The notes: generated from the sequence alone by a model not told the origin. A DNA stretch of 64,000 nucleotides from Hyphococcus sp. (GCA_028281665.1 JANQJK010000001.1:1-64000), one strand, 5' to 3'; positions 3,871 to 17,133 are shown, numbered from the stretch's first letter. Made by a program: numbers and translations.

Positions 3871-4829
3871 GTTTGTCCCTCCATAGCCGCCGCCGCGCCG
3901 TAGAGCGCCGCCCCCTCGGCGACAATCAGCTTTACGGGAACGGGCTCCACATAGCTTTTCATGCGGCCTTTGCTGAGAAATGTCTCTGTGAAACCACTGG
4001 CGAGAAAGACATCGCGGATCTTCGGCAGGATGCCGCCGCCGAGCACCACGCCGCCGCGCGCCCCTGTGGAGAGAACGGCGTCGCCCGCGACCCGCCCGAG
4101 AATGGCGCAAAAAAGATCCACCGCCTTCGCGGCAATCGGGCAGGTCCCGCTGATCGCCGCGGCGGTGATTTCATCGGCCGGCAGCGACGCACGGGGCGCG
4201 CCCGCAATAGCGCAAAGCGCGCGATGAATATTGATGAGGCCCCGGCCCGAAAGAAGTCGCTCCACGGAAACCCGCGGGTGCTCTTTCGCGATGAATTGCA
4301 TGACCTCAACCTCTTCTTCCGTACGCGGCGCAAAGGTAACGTGCCCGCCTTCCGTGGGAACGATGATCTGCCCGGCGGGCGACGGCACGATCAGCGCCTG
4401 CCCAAGCCCGGTGCCCGGCCCGATCACAAGAGTCGGCGCTTGCGGATTCGGAGTTCCCGCCTTGACGGTGACGAAGGCGTTTTCCGGCAAATGGCTGATC
4501 CCGGCGGCGAGGGCGTAAAAGTCGTTCACCACCTTGAAATCGTCGAGACGCAATCCGGTGCGGACCTCGTCCGGGCGCAGGCGCCAGTGAGAGTTCGTGA
4601 AAACGATCTCATCTCCGTCAACAGGACCGGCGACCGCAAAGCACGCCCGGCGCGGGCGCGCGCCCACGGATCCAAGATACGCGTCCGCCGCATCGCGAAC
4701 AGTCTCGAAATCCTCGGCGCGAAAATTCTGCGCGTCGCGGATCGCGATGGCGCCGCCGGCAACCGCATCGGCAAGCGCAAAGCGTGCATTCGTTCCGCCA
4801 ATATCTGCGACCAGAAGCGGATCAGCCAT
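3867..4829 (-). CDS. glk: Glucokinase (ROK-independent bacterial Glk family)
   Basis: This 320-residue protein phosphorylates glucose with ATP in the cytoplasm. It has the N-terminal phosphate-binding motif 'DIGGTNARFAL' (residues 9-19), 'TNSHW' and 'VNDFYALA' around the substrate-binding region, the 'GPGTGLGQA' loop, 'EGGHVTFAP' and 'RLLSGRGL'. Length and motif order match Glk of the E. coli type. The ATG is 4 bases after the stop of the upstream edd remnant, with GGAG overlapping that stop codon, which is typical operon spacing. Both operon neighbours are broken genes while glk appears intact, suggesting it is still selected, perhaps to serve the divergent alpha-glucosidase. Confidence 0.95.
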   Translation of the reverse strand: MADPLLVADIGGTNARFALADAVAGGAIAIRDAQNFRAEDFETVRDAADAYLGSVGARPRRACFAVAGPVDGDEIVFTNSHWRLRPDEVRTGLRLDDFKVVNDFYALAAGISHLPENAFVTVKAGTPNPQAPTLVIGPGTGLGQALIVPSPAGQIIVPTEGGHVTFAPRTEEEVEVMQFIAKEHPRVSVERLLSGRGLINIHRALCAIAGAPRASLPADEITAAAISGTCPIAAKAVDLFCAILGRVAGDAVLSTGARGGVVLGGGILPKIRDVFLASGFTETFLSKGRMKSYVEPVPVKLIVAEGAALYGAAAAMEGQT

Positions 4830-4833
4830 CGCA

Positions 4834-5037
4834 CTACTCCAGTCCGAATGTCATGGCGCCATCTTCCGCCCCGCCGACCAGCGACCGGAACCCGGCGAAC
4901 AGTTCCCGGCCAGAGCCGCGGCGCTCCTCCGCAAGGTCGCGCACAGCCGGCTCGCGCGCATCGCCCGCCGCGCCGAAAACGACGAGGTCAAAGGCGCTGA
5001 CTGGAACGAATTGCGCGGCGCTGGCGGGCTCGCTCAC
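4834..5037 (-). pseudogene. zwf-start/edd-end fusion scar (deleted Entner-Doudoroff genes)
   Basis: From a GTG at 5037 the frame encodes about 67 residues. The first 26 end in 'FDLVVFGAAGD', which looks like the N-terminus and NADP-binding strand of glucose-6-phosphate dehydrogenase (zwf). The rest, 'GSGRELFAGFRSLVGGAEDGA' plus a few residues, looks like the extreme C-terminus of 6-phosphogluconate dehydratase (edd). The join near 4960 keeps frame. The simplest reading is one deletion running from early zwf, through pgl, to the end of edd in a zwf-pgl-edd-glk operon. Promoter, start and junction to glk remain. Family matches are from memory of these termini; the edd part is supported by its position directly before glk. 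Confidence 0.65.
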
Positions 5038-5186
5038 TGGCGATGCTCTCTTTTTTGATGTTGCACCGCACAATAACGGCTAACGTGCTGATGCGCAATG
5101 CATGTCTCGCCGGCGCCGGGGAAACTACTGTGAGATGCCGGGCCGGCCGCAACGGCGTTTTTAACCCCGACCGCCCGTCGCCGCAC

Positions 5187-5192
5187 TATAAT
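5187..5192 (+). promoter_or_regulatory. Candidate -10 element (TATAAT) of the alpha-glucosidase gene
   Basis: A perfect TATAAT lies 34 bases before the chosen GTG start. No good -35 hexamer stands 16-18 bases upstream, so an activator may be needed. Its position downstream of the longer frame's first ATG (5043) supports the later start. Confidence 0.4.
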
Positions 5193-5225
5193 GTCCTACA
5201 GGCGAATCATCGGGAGCGCAGCGAA

Positions 5226-6875
5226 GTGGACCCCAGTGGGCCGGAGAACGAAACGGGCGCGGGCGCGAACGAAAGCGAATGGTGGCGAGGCGCCGTCATC
5301 TATCAGATTTACCCGCGCAGTTTTCTCGACTCCAATGGCGACGGCGTCGGCGACCTGAAAGGCGTCCTTGCGGGCCTCGACCATGTGGCGAGCCTTGGCG
5401 TCGACGCCATATGGCTGTCGCCGTTTTTTACCTCGCCCATGAAAGATTTCGGTTACGATGTCGCCGACTATCGCGACGTCGATCCGGTCTTCGGCGACCT
5501 TTCCGATTTCGACGCCATTGTCGAAAAGGCGCATCGGCTTGGCCTCAAGGTCATCATCGACCAGGTTTATTCGCATACGTCGGACCGTCACGGCTGGTTC
5601 GAAGAGAGCCGGCAAAACAGAGAAAACCCTAAGGCGGACTGGTATGTCTGGGCCGCCCCGAAACCGGACGGGTCGCCGCCCAATAACTGGCAATCCGTGT
5701 TCGGCGGCGGTGCATGGGAATGGGATGCCCGTCGCCGACAATACTACCTGCATAATTTCCTTGTCAGCCAGCCGGATCTGAACCTGCACAATAAATCCGT
5801 ACAGGATGCATTGCTTGACACGGCGCGGTTCTGGCTCGATCGGGGCGTAGACGGTTTCCGTCTCGATGCATTGAACTTCGCCATGCACGACCCGCAATTA
5901 CGGGACAATCCGCCGGCGCCGCAGAGTGGCCGGACCCTGACGCGTCCGTTTGACTATCAGCAGCATGCCTACAGCCGGTCCCATCGCGGGATTCCGGCTT
6001 TTCTGGAACGCATTCGCGACGTCGCAAACCAATATGAAAGCGTGTTTACGGTCGCCGAGGTAGTCGGCGACGCGCCGCTTGACGAAATGAAGGCGTTTAC
6101 GGCGGGCGGGCGCCGTTTGAACTCAGCCTATGACTTCGCTTTTCTCTACGCCGACAGATTATCGAACAAACTCGTCAGGCAAACGGTCGCCGCCTGGGGC
6201 GGCGACGCGGGCGAAGGCTGGCCCTCATGGACGTTTTCAAATCACGACGCGCCGCGGGTCGTCAGTCGGTGGGCTGACGAGAAGAACAGGGACCGCGCCG
6301 CGCGGCTTTTTGCGATGCTGCTCATGGCATTGCGCGGCAATGTGTTCCTTTATCAGGGCGAGGAACTCGGGCTGCCGCAAGGCGACGTTCCGTTCGAATG
6401 CCTTCAAGACCCGGAAGCCATCGCCAACTGGCCGCTGACGCTGGGCCGCGACGGTGCGCGCACGCCGATGCCCTGGACCGCAAATCAGCCGAACGCCGGG
6501 TTTTCGTCCGGCAAGCCTTGGCTGCCGGTCGACCCGCGCCATTTGCCGTTGTCCGTCAACGAGCAGGAAAAGTCCGAGACCTCCATGCTGCATTTCATGC
6601 GCGCGTTGATCCGTCTACGCCGGGAAAGCAATGCATTGAGGAGCGGCGCAATCGAGTTCGTCGAAACCCAAGACGGCGCACTGGCATTTTACCGCCGCGC
6701 AGGAGCTGACGCGGCGTTGTGCGTTTTCAATCTTAGCGATACGGCCGCGCGCTGGAAACCGCCCGCGGAAACGCCGTATGCACTTGCGGCAAGCACAGGG
6801 ATCGAAACCGGCGACAGAGCGCCGCCAACGGCGCTCGCCCCATATTCCGGCTACATCGCCTTTCCCGTCTGCTAA
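5226..6875 (+). CDS. Alpha-glucosidase, GH13 family
   Basis: I chose the GTG at 5226 because GGGAG lies 9 bases upstream and a TATAAT box precedes it; the family N-terminus 'WWRGAVIYQIYPRSF' begins about 20 residues later. The 549-residue protein has GH13 barrel motifs in order: 'DAIWLSPFF', 'DYRDVDP', 'GLKVIIDQVYSHTS', the nucleophile Asp214 in 'DGFRLDALNF', the acid/base Glu278 in 'TVAEVVG', and Asp341 in 'NHDAP'. This layout matches alpha-glucosidases/oligo-1,6-glucosidases that hydrolyse maltose or isomaltose-type oligosaccharides. There is no signal peptide, so it is probably cytoplasmic. It is divergent from the glk operon, which would phosphorylate the glucose released. Confidence 0.93.
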   Translation: MDPSGPENETGAGANESEWWRGAVIYQIYPRSFLDSNGDGVGDLKGVLAGLDHVASLGVDAIWLSPFFTSPMKDFGYDVADYRDVDPVFGDLSDFDAIVEKAHRLGLKVIIDQVYSHTSDRHGWFEESRQNRENPKADWYVWAAPKPDGSPPNNWQSVFGGGAWEWDARRRQYYLHNFLVSQPDLNLHNKSVQDALLDTARFWLDRGVDGFRLDALNFAMHDPQLRDNPPAPQSGRTLTRPFDYQQHAYSRSHRGIPAFLERIRDVANQYESVFTVAEVVGDAPLDEMKAFTAGGRRLNSAYDFAFLYADRLSNKLVRQTVAAWGGDAGEGWPSWTFSNHDAPRVVSRWADEKNRDRAARLFAMLLMALRGNVFLYQGEELGLPQGDVPFECLQDPEAIANWPLTLGRDGARTPMPWTANQPNAGFSSGKPWLPVDPRHLPLSVNEQEKSETSMLHFMRALIRLRRESNALRSGAIEFVETQDGALAFYRRAGADAALCVFNLSDTAARWKPPAETPYALAASTGIETGDRAPPTALAPYSGYIAFPVC

Positions 6876-6919
6876 GGTGAGTGCGCGCCCGGAATGGCGG
6901 AAGCTGAATGAAGGTTTAA

Positions 6920-6963
6920 TGGAGCGGGTAGCGGGAATCGAACCCGCATATTCAGCTTGGAAG
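6920..6963 (-). repeat. attL: orphan 3' half of tRNA-Gly
   Basis: These 44 bases are identical to 17060-17103 and correspond to the tRNA-Gly segment from the anticodon loop to the CCA end. The sequence on the inner side does not complete a tRNA, so this is the duplicated attachment core, not a gene. Confidence 0.95.
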
Positions 6964-7081
6964 TCTCACACATATTGGAGTGATTTCAGGGTGTTGCGAT
7001 GTAAACGCCGAAAAAATCGAACGAAATAAATCAATAGCTTACTCATCCGGCGTAAACCAATTAAGCGACGGCGCATAGCTT

Positions 7082-7103
7082 GCAAATACGTTTAAACATT
7101 TGC
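7082..7103. promoter_or_regulatory. Inverted repeat GCAAAT-N10-ATTTGC, candidate operator
   Basis: Arms 7082-7087 and 7098-7103 flank a centre containing the palindrome GTTTAAAC. It lies 19 bases upstream of the first gene of the element. A repressor-binding role is inferred from symmetry and position only. Confidence 0.4.
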
Positions 7104-7121
7104 CCAAATGGATTTTGATTT

Positions 7122-7685
7122 ATGAGCAAGACGGCAAAGAAGTTAAAACAGTATCATGAAATGTACCGAATTGGGTTCGATCGATCCCGTCCGCTCGACG
7201 AGCAGTATCATGGGCTGATGGCGGCAAAGGAACTTCGTGCTGAGTTAGACCTATTCCCGACTATATCTGGCTGGGTTGGCGACAAAGGAACGCAACAAGC
7301 TGTCGACCGTATCGAACGCCGTATTTCACGAATCAAAAAAATAAACAATGCGCGTTTCGACGTCACGGCGGCAATTACCCACGAAGGCGCGGCTAAAGGC
7401 AATCGCACAAGTGCCAAAAATCGTGGTTGGTCAAACGCGAAATGCCGTAGCGCAGCCCTAAAGACAATTGAATTGCTCAATGAACGTTATCCAAGATGGC
7501 GGGAAGGCCAAGGAAAGCGATTACCGGGCTCGCATGGCAAAGGTGGAATCGGTGCAATGTATTGCGAAGTTTGCGGGTTGAAAAACTCGGATGAAGCAAG
7601 AAAATACATACATATTGGTGTTCAGCAACTTGCCGATCGCGAAAATATCGATGCCTTGGAGCTTTTGAGAAAACCTTGGTTCTAA
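7122..7685 (+). CDS. Hypothetical protein, first gene of the tRNA-Gly element
   Basis: I do not recognise this 187-residue protein. It is strongly basic and soluble, with no signal peptide or membrane segment. A Lys/Arg-rich helix (residues 60-80, 'RIERRISRIKKINNARFD') is followed by a Gly/Lys-rich stretch ('GQGKRLPGSHGKGGIG') and a lone CxxC ('CEVC') near 150. The basic character would suit nucleic-acid binding, but that is inference. It is codirectional with the following small genes, about 100 bases upstream of the next one. A+T-rich codon use sets it apart from the host genes. Confidence 0.6.
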   Translation: MSKTAKKLKQYHEMYRIGFDRSRPLDEQYHGLMAAKELRAELDLFPTISGWVGDKGTQQAVDRIERRISRIKKINNARFDVTAAITHEGAAKGNRTSAKNRGWSNAKCRSAALKTIELLNERYPRWREGQGKRLPGSHGKGGIGAMYCEVCGLKNSDEARKYIHIGVQQLADRENIDALELLRKPWF

Positions 7686-7747
7686 GATTTGCTTTCCCAG
7701 TCTAAATATCAGCGACTAATTCGTTGCCCATACATCCTTGGGTAATT

Positions 7748-7784
7748 ACTCACGGTTCGGACAACCGAACCAGAAACCGTGAGT
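7748..7784 (+). promoter_or_regulatory. Nested, mutually exclusive hairpins upstream of 7792 gene
   Basis: A perfect 10-bp inverted repeat ACTCACGGTT/AACCGTGAGT (7748-7757, 7775-7784) encloses a second perfect 7-bp hairpin GGTTCGG-ACAA-CCGAACC (7754-7760, 7765-7771). The two share the bases GGTT, so only one can form at a time. The outer repeat ends 7 bases before the ATG. This could be a repressor operator, or an RNA switch that masks or exposes the start region. Confidence 0.5.
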
Positions 7785-7791
7785 ATTGGCT

Positions 7792-8301
7792 ATGACACCT
7801 ATCGAACAGAAAGACCTTCAGCGAGACGTTGAAGGCGCTCATAAACTGCTCCAAAACGCATTTGGCCGAAAGCTCAGTGATCGTGAAGTTGCTGAGCGAT
7901 TTACTCGACTTGAACGTCGCCTATGCCGCACCACGCTTAGCAGGGTCGAAACCGGCGTTTCGTGGTCACTAATTGATTCAAGGTGTCTTCGTGCTGTGCA
8001 GCGAAGCGGCCACCACTATGCTGCACTACTTGCGGCAATTGCAGGAATAGATCTGTCGGACCACAAGTCGGAAATTGATTTCATAGCACGTGACGACGAC
8101 AGGTTAGCCGATAAAATTCGAAGCGTCCGGATAGAATTTGCTCTCTGGAACAGAACGCAAAACCCCAACGCCGATGGAATTGATGTCGATTCGATTTGTA
8201 TTTCGTATGCCGCTGCCAGTATTCGGGCCCGGATCGAACTTAACCTACGAAATGGCGAAGAACCTCTAGGCCATTTCGAGTGCACAGATCGACTCCATTA
8301 A
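7792..8301 (+). CDS. Hypothetical protein
   Basis: The ATG at 7792 is preferred over an in-frame TTG two codons upstream. The roughly 169-residue product is soluble and not recognised. The first half has a helix-rich region with 'FGRKLSDREVAERFTRLERRLCRTTLSRVETG', which is reminiscent of a helix-turn-helix regulator's start, but I see no clean motif. The second half contains 'ALLAAIAGIDLS' and acidic stretches. The palindrome directly upstream would suit an autoregulated gene. Codon use is A+T-rich like the rest of the element. Confidence 0.55.
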   Translation: MTPIEQKDLQRDVEGAHKLLQNAFGRKLSDREVAERFTRLERRLCRTTLSRVETGVSWSLIDSRCLRAVQRSGHHYAALLAAIAGIDLSDHKSEIDFIARDDDRLADKIRSVRIEFALWNRTQNPNADGIDVDSICISYAAASIRARIELNLRNGEEPLGHFECTDRLH

Positions 8302-8437
8302 CGCCACTCACGTAGCGAACAGTTTTGAAGAAGCCCGCACAAATACTGTTTAAATGCGCACCGCAAAAACGATCGGTTATTCATTCATACCAGCTAAACA
8401 AACGAACCATCGTATAGAAACATAAACGGTAATCACA

Positions 8438-8986
8438 ATGAGCGAGTCGAATGCGATAGTTAACCGGCGTGGCAAATGGAGCTTGAAAGGCGTTCCGCAC
8501 AAGGGGTGGGAATGCGTTGATTGTGAAGACTTGGGCGAACCAGCCCAAACGTGTGAAATGTGTGAATCAACAGAGATTCGATATGTTCACGTAATGAGAC
8601 ATCCCGATTTCGAGACTGAACTACGCGTAGGATGCGTTTGTGCTGAGCACCTTTCCGAAGGATATGTTGGAAAGGAAAATGAACGCAGACTACGGAACTA
8701 TGCGAAGCGTCGGTCGCGTTTTCTAAATCGAAAGTGGAAGACTTCGAGAAGCGGTAATCCCAAGATTGAATTGAATGATTATCCCATTACAATTTTTGAA
8801 AAGGTATGCGGTTGGAAGTATGTGATTACGGTCGGGTTCTTTAAACCTTGGGCACCAGACGAGTCTCCAGAATCAATCTTCAGCGATCGCACTTTCAAAA
8901 CCAAGGACGATGCCAAACTTGCAGCGTTTGATCATGTAATGAGATTAGGACCGAGATATCAGAACCATACGTCCAAGACTCAATAA
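8438..8986 (+). CDS. Hypothetical zinc-ribbon-like protein
   Basis: This 182-residue protein has three closely spaced cysteine pairs: 'CVDC' near 26, 'CEMC' near 38, and 'CVCAEH' near 65 (a Cys-x-Cys plus His). The pattern suggests a structural zinc site. A basic patch follows ('RRLRNYAKRRSRFLNRKWK', near 85-105), then a beta-rich tail with 'GWKYVITVGFF'. I cannot name a family. Small zinc-ribbon proteins of this kind are common in phages and plasmids, often as nucleic-acid-binding factors. The gene ends 12 bases before the helicase gene and probably shares its transcript. Confidence 0.6.
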   Translation: MSESNAIVNRRGKWSLKGVPHKGWECVDCEDLGEPAQTCEMCESTEIRYVHVMRHPDFETELRVGCVCAEHLSEGYVGKENERRLRNYAKRRSRFLNRKWKTSRSGNPKIELNDYPITIFEKVCGWKYVITVGFFKPWAPDESPESIFSDRTFKTKDDAKLAAFDHVMRLGPRYQNHTSKTQ

Positions 8987-8998
8987 TCTCGCAGTTAT

Positions 8999-10429
8999 AT
9001 GACCAAACCCGACATACGACTGGTCCCGATCAGCGCTGAACAGTTCATGGCGGTGCGGCGGAAGATCGAATCGATCGCTCCGGAGCAACCGCGGGCTATC
9101 GTCGACGACTACACACCTGACGAAGTCTGCATCGAACTGATCCAGACCGGTGCGGCGTATCACGACCCGTCCACCCGTCTCGCCTGGAGGGGCTACACGG
9201 CTGATCAGATCCGAGCTTTTTTCGATGCGTCGGTCGATCGGGGGAGTAAGCGATGGAACGAGCGGTATCGTGAAATCGATGCAGCGGTCGCTTCGGCGTG
9301 GAAGAAACACACCGCTCGCGCCAACAAATTCTTCGCTGAGCCCATTACGTCCCAAAGCCTGCCCAACACAGCGCCACCGCGGCACGTCACGTTCGATACG
9401 ATCTCTGCAGCTTCATTTTACGGACAGCCTATCCCGCGCCAGCCCTGGCTCATCGACGGCATGCTACCAGCCGGCCAACCGTCGCTATTGAGCGGAGACG
9501 GCGGGCTTGGGAAGTCTTACCTGGCCCTTCAATTGTCGGTCAGCGTTGTAGCTACGGGAATGTGGCTATCTCGCAGTGTCGAACGCGGGTCAGTGCTGTA
9601 CGTCTCGTGTGAAGACGAAACCGCCGAGATCCACCGCCGATTGGAAAAAATCAGCAAGCATGCGGGAGTGACAGTGAATGATCTCAGCGGCCTCCATATC
9701 GCTCCAATGGCTGACCGTGATGCCCTGTTAGCGTCAACGACCCGTGCGGGGCTACAGATGACGCCACTATTCGCGGCGCTCAGTGAACGCGTTGCGGCCT
9801 CACGACCCACGCTCGTCGTACTCGACAGCCTCGCAGATGTTTACGGCGGCAATGAGATCGATAGAGCGCAGGTGCGGTGGTTCATCGGTCAGTTGCGGTC
9901 ACTGTGTCATACGACGGGAGCGACTATCGTCATTCTATCTCACCCATCGCTTAGCGGCATGGCGTCTGGTTCGGGTTTGTCTGGATCGACCCATTGGAAC
10001 AATTCGGTTCGTTCGCGATTGTACCTGACGCGGCCGGATAGCGGGAACAATGACGAACGGGTTTTAGAAGTTAAGAAGAACAACCGCGGTGAGACGGGTC
10101 GTCAGATCGAGCTGGAGTGGAGGAATGGTGTGTTCGTCGCACTCGACGGAGGCGACGCTAGACGTTTCGTAGAGGCGGATATAGATGACTTGTTCATGAC
10201 CTTACTCAAGCGCTTCACCGAGCAAGGTCGCTACGTCAACGCCAGCGGCGGGACGACATATGCTCCCTCGGTATTCGAAAAAGAGCCGGAAGCAAAAGCA
10301 CGGCGGATCAAGAAAAGGCAGTTTTCGGAAGCTATGTCTCGACTGTTCGGTGCGGGACGGATCGCCGTGGGAACACGCAAATCGGGCGGTCACGAACGGC
10401 AATTCATTGAGATTACTGGGGACAGTTAG
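8999..10429 (+). CDS. RepA-like hexameric helicase / AAA ATPase
   Basis: This 476-residue protein has a RecA-fold ATPase domain (about residues 140-345) of the RepA/AAA_25 type. Walker A is 'GDGGLGKS' at 166-173, 'YVSCEDE' lies near 201-207 after strand 2, Walker B is 'LVVLDSLAD' around 272-280, and 'ILSHPS' is the sensor strand. The N-terminal 130 residues form a separate helical region, and the C-terminal 80 are basic with a winged-helix-like pattern. Family members unwind origins of mobilisable plasmids and occur in phage satellites. Here it is the only replication gene of the element. The ribosome-binding site is weak, and a small upstream gene ends 12 bases before, so translational coupling is possible. 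Confidence 0.85.
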   Translation: MTKPDIRLVPISAEQFMAVRRKIESIAPEQPRAIVDDYTPDEVCIELIQTGAAYHDPSTRLAWRGYTADQIRAFFDASVDRGSKRWNERYREIDAAVASAWKKHTARANKFFAEPITSQSLPNTAPPRHVTFDTISAASFYGQPIPRQPWLIDGMLPAGQPSLLSGDGGLGKSYLALQLSVSVVATGMWLSRSVERGSVLYVSCEDETAEIHRRLEKISKHAGVTVNDLSGLHIAPMADRDALLASTTRAGLQMTPLFAALSERVAASRPTLVVLDSLADVYGGNEIDRAQVRWFIGQLRSLCHTTGATIVILSHPSLSGMASGSGLSGSTHWNNSVRSRLYLTRPDSGNNDERVLEVKKNNRGETGRQIELEWRNGVFVALDGGDARRFVEADIDDLFMTLLKRFTEQGRYVNASGGTTYAPSVFEKEPEAKARRIKKRQFSEAMSRLFGAGRIAVGTRKSGGHERQFIEITGDS

Positions 10430-10603
10430 TCTCGCGCGCGACCCTTACACTCCCCCGCGCTCCCCTCGGTAAGTCATTGATTTTTCTACGTCGCCCCTTC
10501 GCGCGCGCACTCCCCATACCCCTATACGCTCCGCGTCGCCTATGGCGGCAACCGCGGGCGTGTAAATGGAAATTCTCAACGTAACGCCAAGCACGGGTAT
10601 GTT
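10430..10603. other. G/C-tract-rich intergenic region after the helicase gene
   Basis: On the minus strand this 174-base gap carries repeated G-runs: GGGG at least four times plus a GGGGG, between 10436 and 10526, mixed with alternating CG stretches (CGCGCGCG). 'ACTCCCC' occurs twice on the plus strand. A gap of this type beside a replication gene could be an origin or a structured DNA region. I see no gene and no clear iteron set. Confidence 0.35.
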
Positions 10604-11824
10604 GTGCACGTTTTCGGTGATTCGGAAAAGCTACTCATGTTCGAGAAAATTACATTACGGCGGAGCGAAAACGGAGTCCCGTTTAGCATCGGGCATTTAG
10701 CCGAGGCCATGCTTTTTCACCAAAATGTACATGTTTTACTAGATCGGTGGAGCACTATTGCGCTTGCAAAGTCGCTCGGATCAGACCTTCTCCTTTCAAT
10801 ACTGGAGCGGCCGGAAGTAACTGCAACCTTCACGGAACAAATACTCGCTACCCACACCAAAACGGTCAACGGAATAAGTGTATATGACTGGGGGGCAATT
10901 CAGTTCGCTGGAGACCAAGATAGGGGAGTCTTGAAAAAGCAGGCTAGGATAACCGACATCTTTTTAAAGGCAGGCCTCCCTAAAGGCGAAGCAAAAAAAG
11001 CGAGCAGACGCTTTCGCGAGTTGACAAAAACTCGATCACTAACGTCAAACTACTATGCGCCTGGTGGTATTCCCGAAGCAGCGCGCGAGGAAGCCACCGA
11101 TATGGCATATTTCTCACACGCGCTCGCCACCAGTTTAGCGAATGATATTAAGAGGCCGGAACTAGCAAAAGAATTTAAGTTTGAAATAACACGCATTGAT
11201 GGCGGTTTTTTCGTTGTCGATAACGTAAACTGGGAACAAGTAAATGAGGAAAGAAAAAAGATATTACCAAATGTCGATGACATTGGCTGCGCACACGTAC
11301 TTTCGTCATTTCAGAACGCCGTTGCTGATCTACACATAGCATCACACTACGGCGGCGAATATGTGACTGACTCAATTTCATCTCAGCTAACGCGACTCAA
11401 ATATTCAAAATTGCTAAAAAGAATTGGGCGAGATACCAATTCAGTATCCGAATTCCAAGACGCGGTGCTAGATAATGCCGCGGCGGTTCGCGAATGCATA
11501 AATTCGGGCGAAAAGACGTTTGCAGAGTTTTTAAGAGTAATTGACCGTCGCGACGGGAAAAAGTTTAAGGAGTTTTGGGCTGGCGTGAACTCCGATGAAA
11601 ACGTTCTGCGAGCGTACTTTGAAGAAAGCTCGCGACGGGGCTGGATCGAGAATATACCAAGCAAAACAATTCGTTTCGCCTTTTGCACCACGATTGGCGC
11701 TGTTTCGCTTCCGGTAGGAATTGCCCTTTCGGCAAGCGATTCGTTTCTGGTGGAAAAGTTAACGAGAGGGTGGCGGCCACATCATTTCGTCGAGCGACAC
11801 TTAAAACCATTCGCTGAGTCATAA
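10604..11824 (+). CDS. Uncharacterised 406-aa protein, first gene of a two-gene accessory cassette
   Basis: Translation may start at GTG 10604 or ATG 10637 (residue 12). I do not recognise a named domain. The N-terminal 120 residues alternate helices and strands around 'SIGHLAEAMLFHQNVHVLLDR' and 'LAKSLGSDLLLSILERPEV', which recalls a widespread uncharacterised group. The middle is helical and charged. Near the C-terminus is one hydrophobic stretch ('FCTTIGAVSLPVGIALSAS', about 365-385), then a basic aromatic tail ('RGWRPHHFVERHLKPF'). The gene is A+T-rich compared with the helicase. The next gene starts 8 bases after its stop, so the two are almost certainly co-transcribed. Function unknown; a defence or host-interaction role is only a guess from location. 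Confidence 0.75.
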   Translation: MHVFGDSEKLLMFEKITLRRSENGVPFSIGHLAEAMLFHQNVHVLLDRWSTIALAKSLGSDLLLSILERPEVTATFTEQILATHTKTVNGISVYDWGAIQFAGDQDRGVLKKQARITDIFLKAGLPKGEAKKASRRFRELTKTRSLTSNYYAPGGIPEAAREEATDMAYFSHALATSLANDIKRPELAKEFKFEITRIDGGFFVVDNVNWEQVNEERKKILPNVDDIGCAHVLSSFQNAVADLHIASHYGGEYVTDSISSQLTRLKYSKLLKRIGRDTNSVSEFQDAVLDNAAAVRECINSGEKTFAEFLRVIDRRDGKKFKEFWAGVNSDENVLRAYFEESSRRGWIENIPSKTIRFAFCTTIGAVSLPVGIALSASDSFLVEKLTRGWRPHHFVERHLKPFAES

Positions 11825-11832
11825 GAAACAAG

Positions 11833-13488
11833 ATGAGCTTTGTCGGTATCACTGTTGGGAATGCGGTCGCTGCGCTAGCTTTTACATTTGCAATTCAACA
11901 GTTCTTGCGGCCAATTCATCTATTTCGTTTGCGCTCACAAGGGCTTCCAATAAATGTCTTCTATATAGCTATCTTTATCGCAGCGGGTTTTGTGTTTGCA
12001 GGAAACTTTGTTCGAAGTTTTGAGATTTTACCGTCATCGAACCACCTTTTCGCTTCGATTCTTGAGTATGTTGGCGCCGCTCTCTTTATTGTTTCCTATC
12101 TAGGCGTAGCCTTCATCGCAACAATAAGACCGCGATTTTCGCGCCGAAACGCGATTCCCTTCACTCAAGCAGCATTTTCGCTAATGTCAAAAGCGAAGGA
12201 AGAAGATTATGTACGGTTTTTTCATGACATAGTTCACAACATCACGGAGATATTTGAACTCGCTAAATTCAACGAACAGTACCGTTTTGCAGGGATCGGC
12301 AGAGAGCGACCCAGCGCTTTTTTTGATTTTATTCACAGGCACACTATCGAGCGGTCAGCCTATGCTGGTGATCTGCTGTCTATGTTATCGGATAGTAGGT
12401 TTTGTAAGGCAATCATTACGCACGATTCAACGGCAGTCGTCCAACTACTTGCAAAAATATCGCACGGCAGGCTGCATAGTTCTAAAGGCCAACGCATGAT
12501 TCAGGAGCTTGCCCGTCAATCAATTCTTCTCGATTCATCCATGCTTGAACGGGAAGTCGGCTACCACGGATTTAGTCACATTGGGCTATTTTTAGAGTCT
12601 ATGTTTGGCGATAGCTTCATTGTTAGAAGTTACAAACCACTAAACAAGATTAGCGCGTTCTATGATGTCGATATTTCGCACCGATTCGTGGAACGTCTAT
12701 CCGCGGCAGTTCAACAGGTCTGGAAAACAGGGGCGGGAGAAATTTGGCACCCTCAATCCGTTTATGATGTGGCACGATTGCTGGATTCATTGTCATCCAC
12801 CATTCGTAGTCTAGAAGAGAAAGATACTACGCAATGGCGCTTATCGGCGCCAATTCCCCGTATACTTCAAACAATTGTTGAGGCTTCCAACAAGGAGATT
12901 TTGGAATTAACTACCGAGGAAAGGCGTTCGCTATATAAGCCTGATGAGGAAACCAGCGCTCACGAACACATTGCTTCGCTAACTGCCGAAATCATCTTCG
13001 ATTATTTTTGCAACATATCCAATGGGTTTTTGGGGTTTGAAGACAAGCAATGGGTAGGAGCGCTTGATGTATTTGGAGAAGTCTTTCCTTCTGGAGATAC
13101 TCAGCCCGCGGGCCTCGACCCCATTCAACAACATCTTGCACTACGAATTATCGGAAAAGTACGCGATAATATGATTGGTTACTATCCAGCGATAACCAGA
13201 TTGTTGCTGGCAGTCATCGGCCCTTACGGCTCGCGAAACGGCAAAAGTAATAGTGCATTTCAACTGTTAGAAGATGCTTTCTACTTTGAACTACGTCGGT
13301 TTTCCGCGCTAGCAATTGAATCCCCTGAAAAGGTTTCGGATTATTTGCCTCCTAACGTTCGGTTTCAAAAGGAACAGAGTGTTTTGGTGCATCGCTATGC
13401 GTTCAATAGTGGCATACGCGAAACGAATTTGAATAAATTAAATCTTGGCGGCGTCGACTTTTACGATAAAAGCCGATTTGTGTCATAG
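11833..13488 (+). CDS. Uncharacterised 551-aa membrane protein, second gene of the cassette
   Basis: The N-terminus has three predicted membrane segments (about residues 5-25, 40-60 and 72-97, e.g. 'FYIAIFIAAGFVFAGNF'). A basic stop-transfer ('RPRFSRRN') follows, then about 440 cytoplasmic residues, mostly helical. I see no catalytic motif: no P-loop, HD, nuclease or protease signature. Conspicuous segments are 'FFHDIVHNITEIFELAKFNEQ' and a conserved-looking C-terminal region ending 'LNLGGVDFYDKSRF'. It is coupled to the upstream 406-aa gene with an 8-base gap. A membrane-anchored large helical protein paired with a soluble partner in an integrative element resembles the layout of many abortive-infection modules, but nothing in the sequence proves that. 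Confidence 0.75.
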   Translation: MSFVGITVGNAVAALAFTFAIQQFLRPIHLFRLRSQGLPINVFYIAIFIAAGFVFAGNFVRSFEILPSSNHLFASILEYVGAALFIVSYLGVAFIATIRPRFSRRNAIPFTQAAFSLMSKAKEEDYVRFFHDIVHNITEIFELAKFNEQYRFAGIGRERPSAFFDFIHRHTIERSAYAGDLLSMLSDSRFCKAIITHDSTAVVQLLAKISHGRLHSSKGQRMIQELARQSILLDSSMLEREVGYHGFSHIGLFLESMFGDSFIVRSYKPLNKISAFYDVDISHRFVERLSAAVQQVWKTGAGEIWHPQSVYDVARLLDSLSSTIRSLEEKDTTQWRLSAPIPRILQTIVEASNKEILELTTEERRSLYKPDEETSAHEHIASLTAEIIFDYFCNISNGFLGFEDKQWVGALDVFGEVFPSGDTQPAGLDPIQQHLALRIIGKVRDNMIGYYPAITRLLLAVIGPYGSRNGKSNSAFQLLEDAFYFELRRFSALAIESPEKVSDYLPPNVRFQKEQSVLVHRYAFNSGIRETNLNKLNLGGVDFYDKSRFVS

Positions 13489-13740
13489 GCATTGAATGCC
13501 GTTATATCAGTTATCCAAGTAACTTATGGTGGTGGGGCTGCTCAAAAGTTCAAATCCGTCCAGCCCAAACCGGCTGCCAAGTGAAAATTTTTCGCGCGCA
13601 GGTTGTGAGAACAAAAAAGGAACGTCAGTATCGCTTTTAAGATTTGCTAAGTAAATCTGATTTTCCTTTTATTTTCAATACACTAGAGTTGACGCCGTAG
13701 CCTTTTTCCGTAGAGTTCACTCGTCGCCTTTATCGGTTTC

Positions 13741-13757
13741 GCCGCGTCGGTGACCGG
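13741..13757 (+). repeat. 17-bp direct repeat GCCGCGTCGGTGACCGG, copy 1
   Basis: Identical to 13890-13906, 149 bases downstream. A weaker relative 'CGCGTCCGTGACCG' lies at about 13856-13869 between them. The repeats are confined to the G+C-rich patch upstream of the capsid gene. Confidence 0.6.
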
Positions 13758-13889
13758 CATCCGGTATCGATAAGGCGCAAGGTCGGACGGTCTGATCACC
13801 CGCCCGACCGACGCCGCGACCGCAGCGCTCGCGTAGAGCGCCCCAGCGCCGCCGTCGCGTCCGTGACCGACGATGCAGGTGTTTGGAGG

Positions 13890-13906
13890 GCCGCGTCGGT
13901 GACCGG
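13890..13906 (+). repeat. 17-bp direct repeat GCCGCGTCGGTGACCGG, copy 2
   Basis: Perfect copy of 13741-13757. It ends 57 bases before the capsid start codon. Confidence 0.6.
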
Positions 13907-13963
13907 TTTTCACGTAACGGCTTGCGACTGTCGCAGGCCTTGAAAGCTAAAGGTCTAAAAACC

Positions 13964-15205
13964 ATGAAATACCAATCTGAACTCGTGTCCACGGGGCGCG
14001 TTCCCCGTGTGCTTGCTCATTACGACAGAAACGAAGTTGCCGAGGCGACACGTCTAATTCACGAAATCAACAATGCATTTAGCGATTTTCGCTCGCGAAA
14101 CGATGCGAAGATTTCTGAACTGCAAGAGAACCAGGATGAATTGAATCGTCGCTTTGCAGCGGGCCCAGTATCGTCTGACAATGACGTTACTTTGCCTGTT
14201 CGTAGGGACGGAAGGCCGCGCCTGAGTCAATCCGCTGCCGACAACTTCCTTGGGTTACTCCAAGGCGATCCGCAGATGGCAATGACGGTTGGCTCGGATC
14301 CTGACGGCGGGTTCTCTGTTGAGCGTGAACTTGATAATGAAGTCCTTCGGGTGATCCGTAATTCCAGCGCCATGCGCCGCTTGGCATTCAACGCCAACTT
14401 AAGCATGGGCTTCGGATCATGGAAAAAACTTGTGACGACACAAGGCGGCGCGAGCGGTTGGGCTTCCGAGTCTGACACACGCGGACAGACCGACACGGCC
14501 CTATTCGGAGCGGTCGAGGTGTTCCCGTCAGAACTGTTCGTCAATGCGGAAGTGTCAAACTACCTATTGGATGACGCCGGTTTTAGCATCGAGCAGTTCC
14601 TGCAAACAGACGTTGCTGATGAATTCAGCGCAACAGAGGGGGCTGCGTTTGCAAATGGCAATGGATCGAATAAGCCGCTTGGCCTATTTCAACATCCAAC
14701 GTCGACTGACGATGACGATGCCCGAGAATTCGGAACGCTCGAATATGTTCCAACTGGCATAGCCGGAGCATTTTCCGGTTCCAGCGCTTCGCCGTCGTCT
14801 TCGCCCTATGATGTGTTGGTCGACCTGATCTCCAGGTTTCGGGTCGGCTATCTTGCAAACGCCACCTGGCTAATGAGCCCCCAAACAGCCGGAACTTTGC
14901 GCAAAGTGAAGGATCAGGACGGTCGGTTCATCTGGCAGGACTCATTGATCGCTGGACAGCCATCTATGTTACTCGGTTATCCGGTGGAAATGGACGAAAA
15001 CGCCCCTGCTATCGCTGCCGATTCGCTGTCGATTGCATTTGGCGATTTCAGCCGAGGCTACGTGATCGTCGACCGGCCGGGCATGCAGCTTGTTCGTGAC
15101 CCGTACACGAAGAAGGGCTTCACGCGGTTTTACTTCACTCGTCGCGTTGGCGGTCGCGTCCTAGATTCGCGTGCCATAAAGTTCATTAAATTCAGCAACT
15201 CCTAA
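13964..15205 (+). CDS. HK97-family phage major capsid protein
   Basis: The ATG at 13964 follows AAAGG by 10 bases. The 413-residue product has the family architecture. Residues about 15-60 form a charged helical scaffold (delta) segment ('EVAEATRLIHEINNAF', 'DAKISELQENQDELNRR'). The mature capsid fold starts near residue 100, with the usual 'DPDGGFSVERELDNEVLRVIR', then 'GASGWASESDTR', 'FPSELFVNAEVSNYLLDD', 'GAAFANGNGSNKPLGL', 'TWLMSPQTAGTLRKVKDQDGRFIW', and 'GDFSRGYVIVDRPG' to the end. Such proteins form the icosahedral shell. Prohead protease, portal and terminase, normally adjacent, are absent, so shell formation, if any, would need a helper phage. A strong terminator follows. Confidence 0.95.
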   Translation: MKYQSELVSTGRVPRVLAHYDRNEVAEATRLIHEINNAFSDFRSRNDAKISELQENQDELNRRFAAGPVSSDNDVTLPVRRDGRPRLSQSAADNFLGLLQGDPQMAMTVGSDPDGGFSVERELDNEVLRVIRNSSAMRRLAFNANLSMGFGSWKKLVTTQGGASGWASESDTRGQTDTALFGAVEVFPSELFVNAEVSNYLLDDAGFSIEQFLQTDVADEFSATEGAAFANGNGSNKPLGLFQHPTSTDDDDAREFGTLEYVPTGIAGAFSGSSASPSSSPYDVLVDLISRFRVGYLANATWLMSPQTAGTLRKVKDQDGRFIWQDSLIAGQPSMLLGYPVEMDENAPAIAADSLSIAFGDFSRGYVIVDRPGMQLVRDPYTKKGFTRFYFTRRVGGRVLDSRAIKFIKFSNS

Positions 15206-15221
15206 CGTCCGGCTGAACTTG

Positions 15222-15260
15222 GCCCCGCCTCTTCGTTTCCTAGGAGGCGGGGCTTCTTTC
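15222..15260 (+). terminator. Rho-independent terminator after the capsid gene
   Basis: A perfect 10-bp G+C-rich stem (GCCCCGCCTC/GAGGCGGGGC, 15222-15231 and 15244-15253) with a 12-base loop is followed by TTCTTTC. It stands 17 bases after the capsid stop and separates that gene from the integration genes. Confidence 0.85.
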
Positions 15261-15270
15261 AAACAGCAAA

Positions 15271-15492
15271 ATGGCTGATACCGAGCATCATAAAAGCAAA
15301 CGTCGCCGCTATCCGACACAAGCAGCGATTGATCGGGTTATTCGGGCTGCTCGCAAGGCGGGAATTTTCGTAAATGGCATCGAAGTTTCGCCAGATGGCG
15401 TCATTCGCGTTATTGACAGGACGGAATCGCCGCAGGACGATTTTGAGCGATGGCAACGATCGAAGGCATTCACTTCGTCCGCCGACGTCTAG
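15271..15492 (+). CDS. Small basic protein overlapping the integrase gene
   Basis: The 73-residue protein begins with a Lys/Arg-rich stretch ('KSKRRRYPTQAAIDRVIRAARKAG'), followed by two short strands ('VSPDGVIRVID') and an acidic linker. This pattern, 'ptqaaI.raiRAArkaG...v...Dg.irv', is one I associate with small genes set just before integrases in alphaproteobacterial islands. Its last 43 bases overlap the integrase start in another frame, so the two are translationally linked. It might be a directionality factor or a DNA-binding regulator; the function is not established. Confidence 0.75.
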   Translation: MADTEHHKSKRRRYPTQAAIDRVIRAARKAGIFVNGIEVSPDGVIRVIDRTESPQDDFERWQRSKAFTSSADV

Positions 15493-16493
15493 CGTCGGGC
15501 GCTGTTCGTTGGCACGTATATGCGTGGCGGGGTGGTCCTAAGGTAATGACCGCTGACGGCTTGGCGAAACCGTCTCTTACGCCAGAAGCCCTCACCGCTA
15601 TTGTCAAAGCACATGAGAACGCAACAGAGCCGCGACGCGATACTTTCGATGGTCTCGTTGTCGCATATCTCGGCAGTGCTGAGTTTAGTCGCCTTGCCGA
15701 AACTACACGCCGTCAGTGGCGAACCTGGGCGGACCGGGCGCGAACTGAGTTCGGTCACGCACCGCTGAAACTGTTTTCGGACCCAAGAATGCGGGGGGCC
15801 ATTCTTGAATGGCGAGACAAGTGGGCCAACTCACCGCGATCGGCTGATTATGCCATGCAGGTTCTGTCGCGAGTTCTTTCATGGGGGCTGCAACGCGGTT
15901 GGGTCATGCATAACCCGGCTGCGGGAATGCCCACTCTTTATCGTGCAGACCGTTCCGACATCATCTGGGAAGACCACGAAATCGATGCGGTGGCCGCCAA
16001 GATGCACCCACATGCGGCGCGCGCGTTCAGATTGGCCGCATGGACTGGGCTACCGAGATCGGATCTCGTGTCGCTGCGATGGGACGACGTTGGCGATCTT
16101 TATATCAGCGGACGGCGCGGAAAAACGAAAGTGGAACGTTGCATTCCGATCTTTGATGAGACGCGAGAATTACTGGCCGGCTTTCCAAAATGTGCCGTCA
16201 CAGTGGTGACTAATTACCGTGGCCGTCCATTTTCAGCGCGAGGGTTTTCAGCGTCATTTGAGAAGGCCAAGGCCGCGGCTGGGATTAGCGGAAAAACCCT
16301 TCACGACCTTCGCGGTACGTTCGCGACACGGCTTATGCGCAAAGGGTTTGAAGACCGGGTGATCGACGAAATCCTTGCGTGGGAAACAGGCCGGTCCGTT
16401 CGCATTCGACGCAAGTACATTACCCGCAAAGCTGTGGTAATTTCCGCAATTGAACGGATGCGCAATCGAAAATCTACTGACCCTGACCGATAA
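15450..16493 (+). CDS. int: Tyrosine recombinase/integrase of the tRNA-Gly element
   Basis: This 347-residue site-specific recombinase has an N-terminal arm-binding region (about 1-60), a SAM-like core-binding domain (about 65-165) and a catalytic domain. Likely active-site residues are Arg203 ('TGLPRSDLVSLRW'), Lys near 225-227 ('GRRGKTK'), His285 and Arg288 ('LHDLRGTFATRL'), Trp311 in the third basic/aromatic position ('ILAWETGRS') and the nucleophile Tyr323 ('RRKYI'). All expected positions are filled, so it should be active. Its target is the 3' part of tRNA-Gly(TCC), judged from the 44-bp duplications. It overlaps the small upstream gene, and its 3' end overlaps the convergent membrane gene by 20 bases. 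Confidence 0.95.
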   Translation: MATIEGIHFVRRRLASGAVRWHVYAWRGGPKVMTADGLAKPSLTPEALTAIVKAHENATEPRRDTFDGLVVAYLGSAEFSRLAETTRRQWRTWADRARTEFGHAPLKLFSDPRMRGAILEWRDKWANSPRSADYAMQVLSRVLSWGLQRGWVMHNPAAGMPTLYRADRSDIIWEDHEIDAVAAKMHPHAARAFRLAAWTGLPRSDLVSLRWDDVGDLYISGRRGKTKVERCIPIFDETRELLAGFPKCAVTVVTNYRGRPFSARGFSASFEKAKAAAGISGKTLHDLRGTFATRLMRKGFEDRVIDEILAWETGRSVRIRRKYITRKAVVISAIERMRNRKSTDPDR

Positions 16494-16935
16494 AGATACC
16501 TAAAGTGAAGAATAATGCGGAAAAAAGAAAGCTAAAGATGACGGCCTTAACGCCTTCACGTTTTGCGCCAGCGTGCACAACATCTGCAATTGCTCCCAAT
16601 TCTTCGTCGCTTAAGTCTTTCAACGCTTCAATCTTTTCTTTTTCCTTTTGGAGGCGATCTAACCGTTTAGTGCGCTTGCTGATCTCTGTATCCAGTTCGC
16701 TTACAAGAAGATTTGCCTCGCGGAGCGCCGCTGATAGTCGATCCACGCGAGATTGGAAATCCAACCCAGACGAACTGCGAGCACGCGAAATTCTTAGTTG
16801 AAAAAACGCAGTTAGAAATGTCGCAAAAAGTGTAATGAGAAAAAGTAAAGGGTCGCGCGTTAGAATCTCCAACGCGTAGCCGAATGTTTGCAGCAGATCC
16901 TGAAACCAATTCGACAAACTATCTGAAATCGCCAT
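16474..16935 (-). CDS. Small membrane protein: TM, coiled coil, TM
   Basis: The 153-residue protein has a hydrophobic segment near residues 29-46 ('PLLFLITLFATFLTAFF'), a long charged helix likely to be a coiled coil (about 55-110; 'SKRTKRLDRLQKEKEKIEAL'), then a second hydrophobic segment at the C-terminus ('VIFSFLFSALFFTLGIFIG'). I do not recognise a family. It is the only minus-strand gene of the element, lies between the integrase and the attachment site, and overlaps the integrase gene end to end by 20 bases. Genes in this position are often expressed from the integrated state, for example immunity or exclusion functions; that is inference. Confidence 0.7.
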   Translation of the reverse strand: MAISDSLSNWFQDLLQTFGYALEILTRDPLLFLITLFATFLTAFFQLRISRARSSSGLDFQSRVDRLSAALREANLLVSELDTEISKRTKRLDRLQKEKEKIEALKDLSDEELGAIADVVHAGAKREGVKAVIFSFLFSALFFTLGIFIGQGQ

Positions 16936-17002
16936 TTTTTGCCCCTCACTTCTCGCGAAAAATTACCGTGCGAATGGCATTACTGCAACAAAGTGGGAAC
17001 TC

Positions 17003-17023
17003 CGATGTAAACCGCCTGTAAAC
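17003..17023 (+). repeat. Arm-type repeats (TGTAAAC) near attR
   Basis: TGTAAAC occurs at 17006-17012 and 17017-17023. The 10-mer CGATGTAAAC at 17003-17012 recurs at 6997-7006, just inside attL. Matching motifs inside both ends fit integrase arm sites. Confidence 0.5.
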
Positions 17024-17059
17024 GGTCCCAACGTGGCACAACTAACAGATTGAAATCAT

Positions 17060-17103
17060 TGGAGCGGGTAGCGGGAATCGAACCCGCATATTCAGCTTGG
17101 AAG
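17060..17103 (-). repeat. attR: 44-bp core within tRNA-Gly
   Basis: Identical to 6920-6963. Reading with the tRNA, it runs from the anticodon loop to the CCA end. Confidence 0.95.
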
Positions 17104-17133
17104 GCTGCTGCACTACCATTGTGCTATACCCGC
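17060..17133 (-). tRNA. tRNA-Gly (anticodon TCC), with encoded CCA
   Basis: Read on the minus strand the gene begins GCGGGTATAG, has an anticodon loop TTCCAAG (TCC) and a T-arm GCGGGTTCGATTCCCGC, and ends with discriminator T and CCA. All stems pair. The 3' 44 bases are the attachment core of the element to its left, which restores a complete tRNA on integration. Confidence 0.97.

Follow-up and report, generated by a model that had tools for sequence, protein, structure and literature searches.

What does a compact chromosomal element gain from carrying a single capsid gene and no other gene for a virion? The locus that raises this question lies in Hyphococcus sp. (GCA_028281665.1, JANQJK010000001.1:1-64000), and we refer to the whole 64,000-nucleotide stretch analysed here as the window. 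Such a gene may be the last trace of a prophage, or it may serve the element that carries it. We suggest that the lone HK97-type major capsid protein (MCP) is probably a working tool for hijacking the shell of another virus, and not the leftover of a dead one; our confidence that the element as a whole is a functional satellite is moderate to good. The element sits in a tRNA-Gly gene at 6920-17106, with a length of 10,140 bp, and its features are as follows.

6920..6966, strand not assigned: left attachment repeat, a piece of the tRNA-Gly 3' part; the same 47 nt bound the sister element L081
7122..7685, plus strand: 187-aa protein; the corresponding end of the sister element L080 has a weakly similar 102-aa ORF
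7786..8301, plus strand: g171, a 171-aa protein common only to the second lone-MCP element, L034 (42-44% identity)
8438..8986, plus strand: 182-aa protein, put through the family searches
8999..10429, plus strand: RepA-like replicative ATPase (AAA_25), 476 aa, E 7e-40
10604..11824, plus strand: 406-aa protein in the cargo slot, which lies between rep and S1; its C-terminal part has a hydrophobic segment
11833..13488, plus strand: 551-aa membrane protein, also in the cargo slot
13568..13602, plus strand: S1, 35 nt, AACCGGCTGCCAAGTGAAAATTTTTCGCGCGCAGG, candidate cos/pac site, common to five terminase-less satellites
13609..13623, plus strand: GAAC-N7-GAAC, LexA (SOS) box consensus, found in four of the five S1 elements
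13741..13906, plus strand: three copies of GCCGCGTCGGTGACCGG, at 13741, 13854 and 13890, around S2
13773..13844, plus strand: S2, a conserved noncoding block that precedes the MCP gene in the window element and in L034
13964..15205, plus strand: HK97-type MCP, 413 aa, with an N-terminal delta-domain-like region and a conserved GGFSV at residue 115
15222..15253, plus strand: terminator-like hairpin downstream of the MCP gene, with a similar one behind the MCP of L034
15271..15492, plus strand: g73, a 73-aa protein before the integrase, with homologues in the same place in L081 (56%) and L080 (50%)
15450..16493, plus strand: tyrosine integrase, 347 aa, Phage_integrase E 4e-18, 92% identical to that of L081 and 68% to that of L080
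16474..16935, minus strand: 153-aa protein with two hydrophobic segments
17060..17133, minus strand: tRNA-Gly(tcc), the target site; the right attachment repeat is its 3' part

The 44-bp perfect duplication of tRNA-Gly that the first-pass annotation had described is confirmed, and lies inside a 47-nt direct repeat (6920-6966 and 17060-17106) in which 46 positions are identical and the first 44 are perfect. Across most of the element GC content drops to 0.45-0.53, from about 0.60 outside, and a relative (G023, locus L127) preserves the empty site, with the glucosidase gene of the left flank directly abutting tRNA-Gly and the conserved right flank. Searches of the ten ORFs against Pfam, PHROGs and NCBIfam recognised three families, the RepA-like AAA_25 protein, the HK97 MCP and the tyrosine integrase, and found no terminase, portal, protease or tail family, which bears out the gene content first read from the DNA. 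The integrase keeps its R-HxxR-Y catalytic set (R203, H285/R288, Y323), as expected of the intact enzyme that had been proposed. An integrase with attachment sites, small size and an incomplete set of virion genes are the marks of integrative satellites in general, and the element shows all of them. The cargo cassette (10604-13488, the 406-aa and 551-aa genes) has no family match, and PADLOC detected none of the known defence systems there; we regard these two genes as a candidate new defence or host-benefit system.

The capsid gene product matches two capsid families (Phage_capsid PF05065, 6e-67; TIGR01554, 1e-84). Its start is most likely the ATG at 13964 and not the TTG at 13883, because the homologue in L034 begins at the same point. 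The strong terminator reported directly after it is indeed there, as a 10-bp GC-rich stem (15222-15231/15244-15253) following the MCP stop codon, part of which was found by a terminator scan. AlphaFold models of the MCP (mean pLDDT 31) and of g171 (mean pLDDT 59) were unusable.

We think it on balance probable that the element is a satellite induced by the SOS response, that its lone MCP co-assembles with head proteins of a helper phage, and that its DNA is recognised by the helper terminase at S1. Under this proposal, DNA damage would remove LexA from the box at 13609-13623, which is identified from its consensus, and so allow a capsid transcript to be made; the integrase would excise the element, and the RepA-like protein would presumably replicate it. 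The lone MCP would then enter the shell of a co-resident or infecting HK97-type helper, from which portal, protease, terminase and tail would be borrowed, while S1 would act as the packaging (cos/pac) site for the helper terminase. The resulting head would fit the genome of about 10 kb and the helper would be starved, as happens with the Ccm protein of SaPIbov5. Co-assembly, in which we have moderate confidence, appears the likeliest mechanism because the anatomy of the window element matches that of SaPIbov5. The Ccm protein of that island is a lone homologue of the capsid protein of the helper, with the HK97 fold and a delta domain of its own; it supplies the pentamers in small T=4 shells, makes no capsids by itself and blocks the helper, and the island also carries the cos site of its helper (PMC5052747, PMC8569155, PMC10945586).

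A first line of evidence comes from sister satellites. S1 is the core of a 57-bp block upstream of the window MCP, and an 89% identical copy of this block precedes the MCP gene of a second locus of the genome (L049, G000:C13); a DNA search with the block led to two further capsid-bearing loci, L081 (G010) and L080 (G032). The three have a common layout, which runs from a replication protein through a cargo slot of variable content and the block to an MCP-head protease-portal module; two small genes come next, and then an integrase that sits at a tRNA gene. No tail or terminase genes were found between their ends. L049 (5444-14909, at tRNA-Ser) is a second capsid-bearing satellite of the window's genome, which thus pairs a lone-MCP element with an MCP-protease-portal-Int element, S1 and the LexA box being common to the two. 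L081 uses the same tRNA-Gly as the window element, with which it has in common both ends, the g73-Int region (86% at the DNA level) and the block, and no other DNA segment. The sister MCP is very distant, to the point that a search with the window MCP missed the sister MCP of the same genome at E 1e-3. Because the ends, the integrase and the cis site of the lineage are kept but the head consists of one MCP of another group, sequence comparison identifies the window element as a head-module swap, and not as a decayed form of the sister MCP-protease-portal module. A relative of the same element with a full morphogenesis module was the observation expected to show that this copy is simply a decayed prophage, and L081 provides half of it: it has the same integrase and site and an MCP-protease-portal module, but its MCP is a different one, and tail and terminase are absent.

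The window element, L034 and the sister satellites cluster in size at 8.5-11.0 kb. More distant relatives in the bacterial family were also recovered. L101 (HNH and TerL) and L103 (an HNH-like ORF, TerS and TerL) look like cfPICIs, which are defined by an MCP, head protease, portal and connectors together with their own TerS, TerL and HNH. L101 (G054:C59, 1914-13037) has Rep, HNH, TerL, MCP, protease, portal, Int and a LexA box, plus a tape-measure-like protein, and a tape measure of its own is unexpected in such a satellite; L103 (G009:C36, 2961-13028) spans about 10 kb at tRNA-Val and has the HNH-like ORF, TerS, TerL, MCP, protease, portal and Int. L102 (G031:C125, about 4583-12898), beside tRNA-Asn, has an odd partial virion set of integrase, MCP, a 607-aa tape-measure protein and a small terminase subunit, with no matches for portal, protease or large terminase. 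L046 (G232:C1, 7234-15392) has an integrase, a Clp-type head protease, an MCP about 45% identical to the lone MCP and a 742-aa tape-measure protein, with transposase-like ORFs nearby, and is possibly a remnant intermediate between a lone MCP and a full module. L105 (G012:C123, 5812-6551) is a decayed relative, an interrupted integrase of the window type with no adjoining element. It is conceivable, although we would call it a long shot, that this satellite family swaps whole head cassettes between fixed ends (int/att on one side, S1 on the other), alternating between building its own shell and mixing into that of another, and that the partner shell could even be that of another satellite in the same cell, as the pairing with L049 in G000 would allow, which would make the element a satellite's satellite.

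The sisters bear on a further interpretation, in which the lone MCP alone builds the whole shell of the satellite, as a cut-down cfPICI, and the helper contributes portal, protease, terminase and tail. The MCP is full-length, with its delta-domain-like N-terminus, and the sisters encode a shell, protease and portal of their own, all of which would suit a homomeric shell. Against this, such a shell needs a matched portal and protease and the element has neither, and SaPIbov5 Ccm cannot form capsids alone. We therefore consider a homomeric shell credible in principle and unlikely in fact.

The second line of evidence is the S1 site. The pattern used for the search was derived from the same five sites, with at most 3 mismatches, and its result hence measures specificity and not function: it matches exactly five places in 148 genomes, all of them in these satellites and always on the MCP strand, whereas the reversed pattern matches nowhere in the same 148 genomes. 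No further site was found in 299 genomes of the order. L034 has S1 close to its right end, about 1.4 kb downstream of its MCP. With a weight matrix, no S1-like site was found in four related elements, two that encode a terminase (L101, L103) and two that do not (L100, L104). We propose S1 as a candidate helper-read packaging (cos/pac) site because it is kept by terminase-less elements whatever their replication genes and wherever it lies in them; it could also be a replication origin or a regulatory site. A role as MCP promoter fits four of the elements and not L034, where S1 is downstream of the MCP. The neighbouring GAAC-N7-GAAC is the published alphaproteobacterial LexA operator (PMC3091678). 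It was not found in L034, and the SOS step would therefore not be general; a short SOS-box-like match in G079 fell outside any recognisable satellite. The S2 block is similar in the two lone-MCP elements at a score that none of 300 shuffle pairs attained.

It is also S1 that argues against the MCP being solely an anti-phage weapon, which would poison the head assembly of an incoming phage in an element that moves rarely or by passive packaging. Expression of Ccm alone lowers phi12 titre 10^3-10^4 fold, and interference genes are frequent in satellites, so that the idea has precedent. The conserved S1, int and att, in contrast, suggest ongoing transfer, and we judge a purely defensive role improbable.

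The third line of evidence is a second element with the same kind of MCP. Syntenic relatives and capsid dN/dS had been put forward as checks on the lone capsid gene. The genome scan returned a close MCP relative, at 66% identity, on contig JANQSJ010000011.1 of a Parvularculaceae bacterium, which belongs to the same family as the window's host but to another genus. There it stands alone in an 8.5-kb element, L034, which is bounded by a perfect 52-nt repeat at tRNA-His and has a 406-aa integrase different from that of the window; searches of L034 found no TerL, portal or protease. L034 also contains an AlpA-like HTH_17 protein, direct repeats and a homologue of g171 (43.6%). Three 43-nt direct repeats at 8066-8243 of L034 are likely replication iterons or a regulatory array. 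Full-score MCPs of this group occur in two of 398 genomes of the order, and g171 occurs in the same two. The two MCP genes differ at 32, 22 and 63% of codon positions 1, 2 and 3, with dN 0.31 and dS saturated; purifying selection acts on the lone MCP in both element backgrounds. The next-best MCPs of a class-wide sample score 270-290 bits, against more than 870 for the lone-MCP pair, and sit with a head protease and mostly with TerL, portal and tail genes, in GTA or GTA-like clusters, some of them cut by contig ends. No relative with an MCP of the lone group inside a full head module was found in the 398 order genomes, the class-wide sample or the viral contigs.

That two separately integrated elements keep a conserved lone MCP does not fit the reading of the gene as a relic. 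Related elements with larger head modules do exist, and L046 and L102 hold partial modules, as might be expected if the window element were a decayed prophage or a decayed capsid-forming satellite with the MCP as its last head gene. Yet the closest element, L081, has a different MCP in its module, the lone MCP recurs in the independent L034, and tblastn found no remnant of portal, protease or terminase, so that the morphogenesis remnants and disrupted ORFs typical of a defective prophage are not seen. We regard decay as quite improbable. Of the readings given in the first-pass annotation, the last relic of a prophage is thus disfavoured, and the satellite with a lone capsid protein is supported by the same MCP alone at another tRNA, the intact integrase and att sites, the empty site and the sister satellites.

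The origin of the MCP was approached through its relatives. The best solved-structure homologue is the MCP of RcGTA (6TB9 and others), the window MCP is 42% identical to the GTA MCP of its host, and the only other HK97-MCP loci of the host genome are its GTA and the one capsid-bearing satellite. Maximum-likelihood analysis joins the two lone MCPs in a clade with 100/100 support, which branches on a long stem apart from the GTA clade and next to phage and G232 MCPs, the latter placement being unsupported; a recent capture from the host GTA was therefore rejected. That the element parasitises an RcGTA-type gene transfer agent, its MCP mixing into GTA heads, would suit this homology, the GTA clusters of G000 and G029 and the GTA-type MCP of G010, but is very improbable given the separate long-stem clade, the absence of a GTA MCP match in G032, which holds a sister satellite, and the fact that RcGTA-type agents package DNA without a specific site.

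The helper posited for co-assembly was sought among viral contigs. The strict S1 pattern matched none of them, and a looser pattern gave seven GC-rich, unrelated matches that did not have the AT-rich spacer and were set aside. A single-sequence search with the MCP gave no match in the viral contigs, and profile searches gave relatives of at most 46% identity, in multi-gene head modules or on short contigs. Because no viral contig has an MCP above this identity, the MCP donor, and probably the helper, appear to be unsampled. Where the Ccm-type SaPIs have the cos site of their helper, S1 is common to the satellites and absent from the viral contigs searched. If S1 is a packaging site, it could be used to track down the helper and to spot further elements of this kind.

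We note that a working lone capsid gene in satellites was previously known mainly from staphylococci, as Ccm. Two alphaproteobacterial elements with a lone MCP, and sisters with the same ends and a larger module, suggest that remodelling a shell and forming one are interchangeable cassettes, and allow the benefits and costs to a satellite of having its own portal and protease to be compared in a natural setting. The premise that a satellite with a capsid gene normally retains a larger head module stands for cfPICIs; it does not for SaPIbov5, PmCI172 and EcCICFT073, which have a lone or nearly lone capsid homologue. With the MCP only, and no TerS, TerL or HNH of its own, the window element is not a cfPICI. 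Its cfPICI-like sisters from the same bacterial family have MCP-protease-portal modules (the three with S1, plus L100 and L104) and a tyrosine integrase, mostly at tRNA genes; L049, L080 and L081 show part of the cfPICI head module, and L101 and L103 part of its terminase/HNH set. The Gram-negative PICIs PmCI172 and EcCICFT073 carry capsid homologues (PMC6092414) and, like the window element, do so without a full head module, but they are gammaproteobacterial, with an AlpA/Pri-type organisation, and the capsid homologue of EcCICFT073 is not involved in interference. RcGTA and GTA-like modules provide the closest solved MCPs, but in full TerL-portal-protease-MCP-tail clusters and in a separate clade.

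The nearest likeness is to the SaPIbov5-type cos SaPIs of Staphylococcus aureus. As in these integrative elements of 10-14 kb, the window element has a lone HK97-fold capsid homologue, the hallmark of the Ccm type, with a helical domain at its N-terminus; both lack portal, protease and TerL and have a short site, helper-read in SaPIbov5 and represented in the window by the candidate S1. It differs in its alphaproteobacterial host, in the LexA box beside its capsid gene and in having no known helper with a related MCP. The likeness lies in the lone capsid and the layout, and not in any demonstrated relationship of integrase, replication or accessory genes; no family match among the ten ORFs suggests a SaPI backbone, and we do not place the element in the SaPI family. 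Satellites with a lone capsid homologue are hence already known, and what is new here is their alphaproteobacterial lineage, the swap of head cassettes and the S1 site that these elements have in common.
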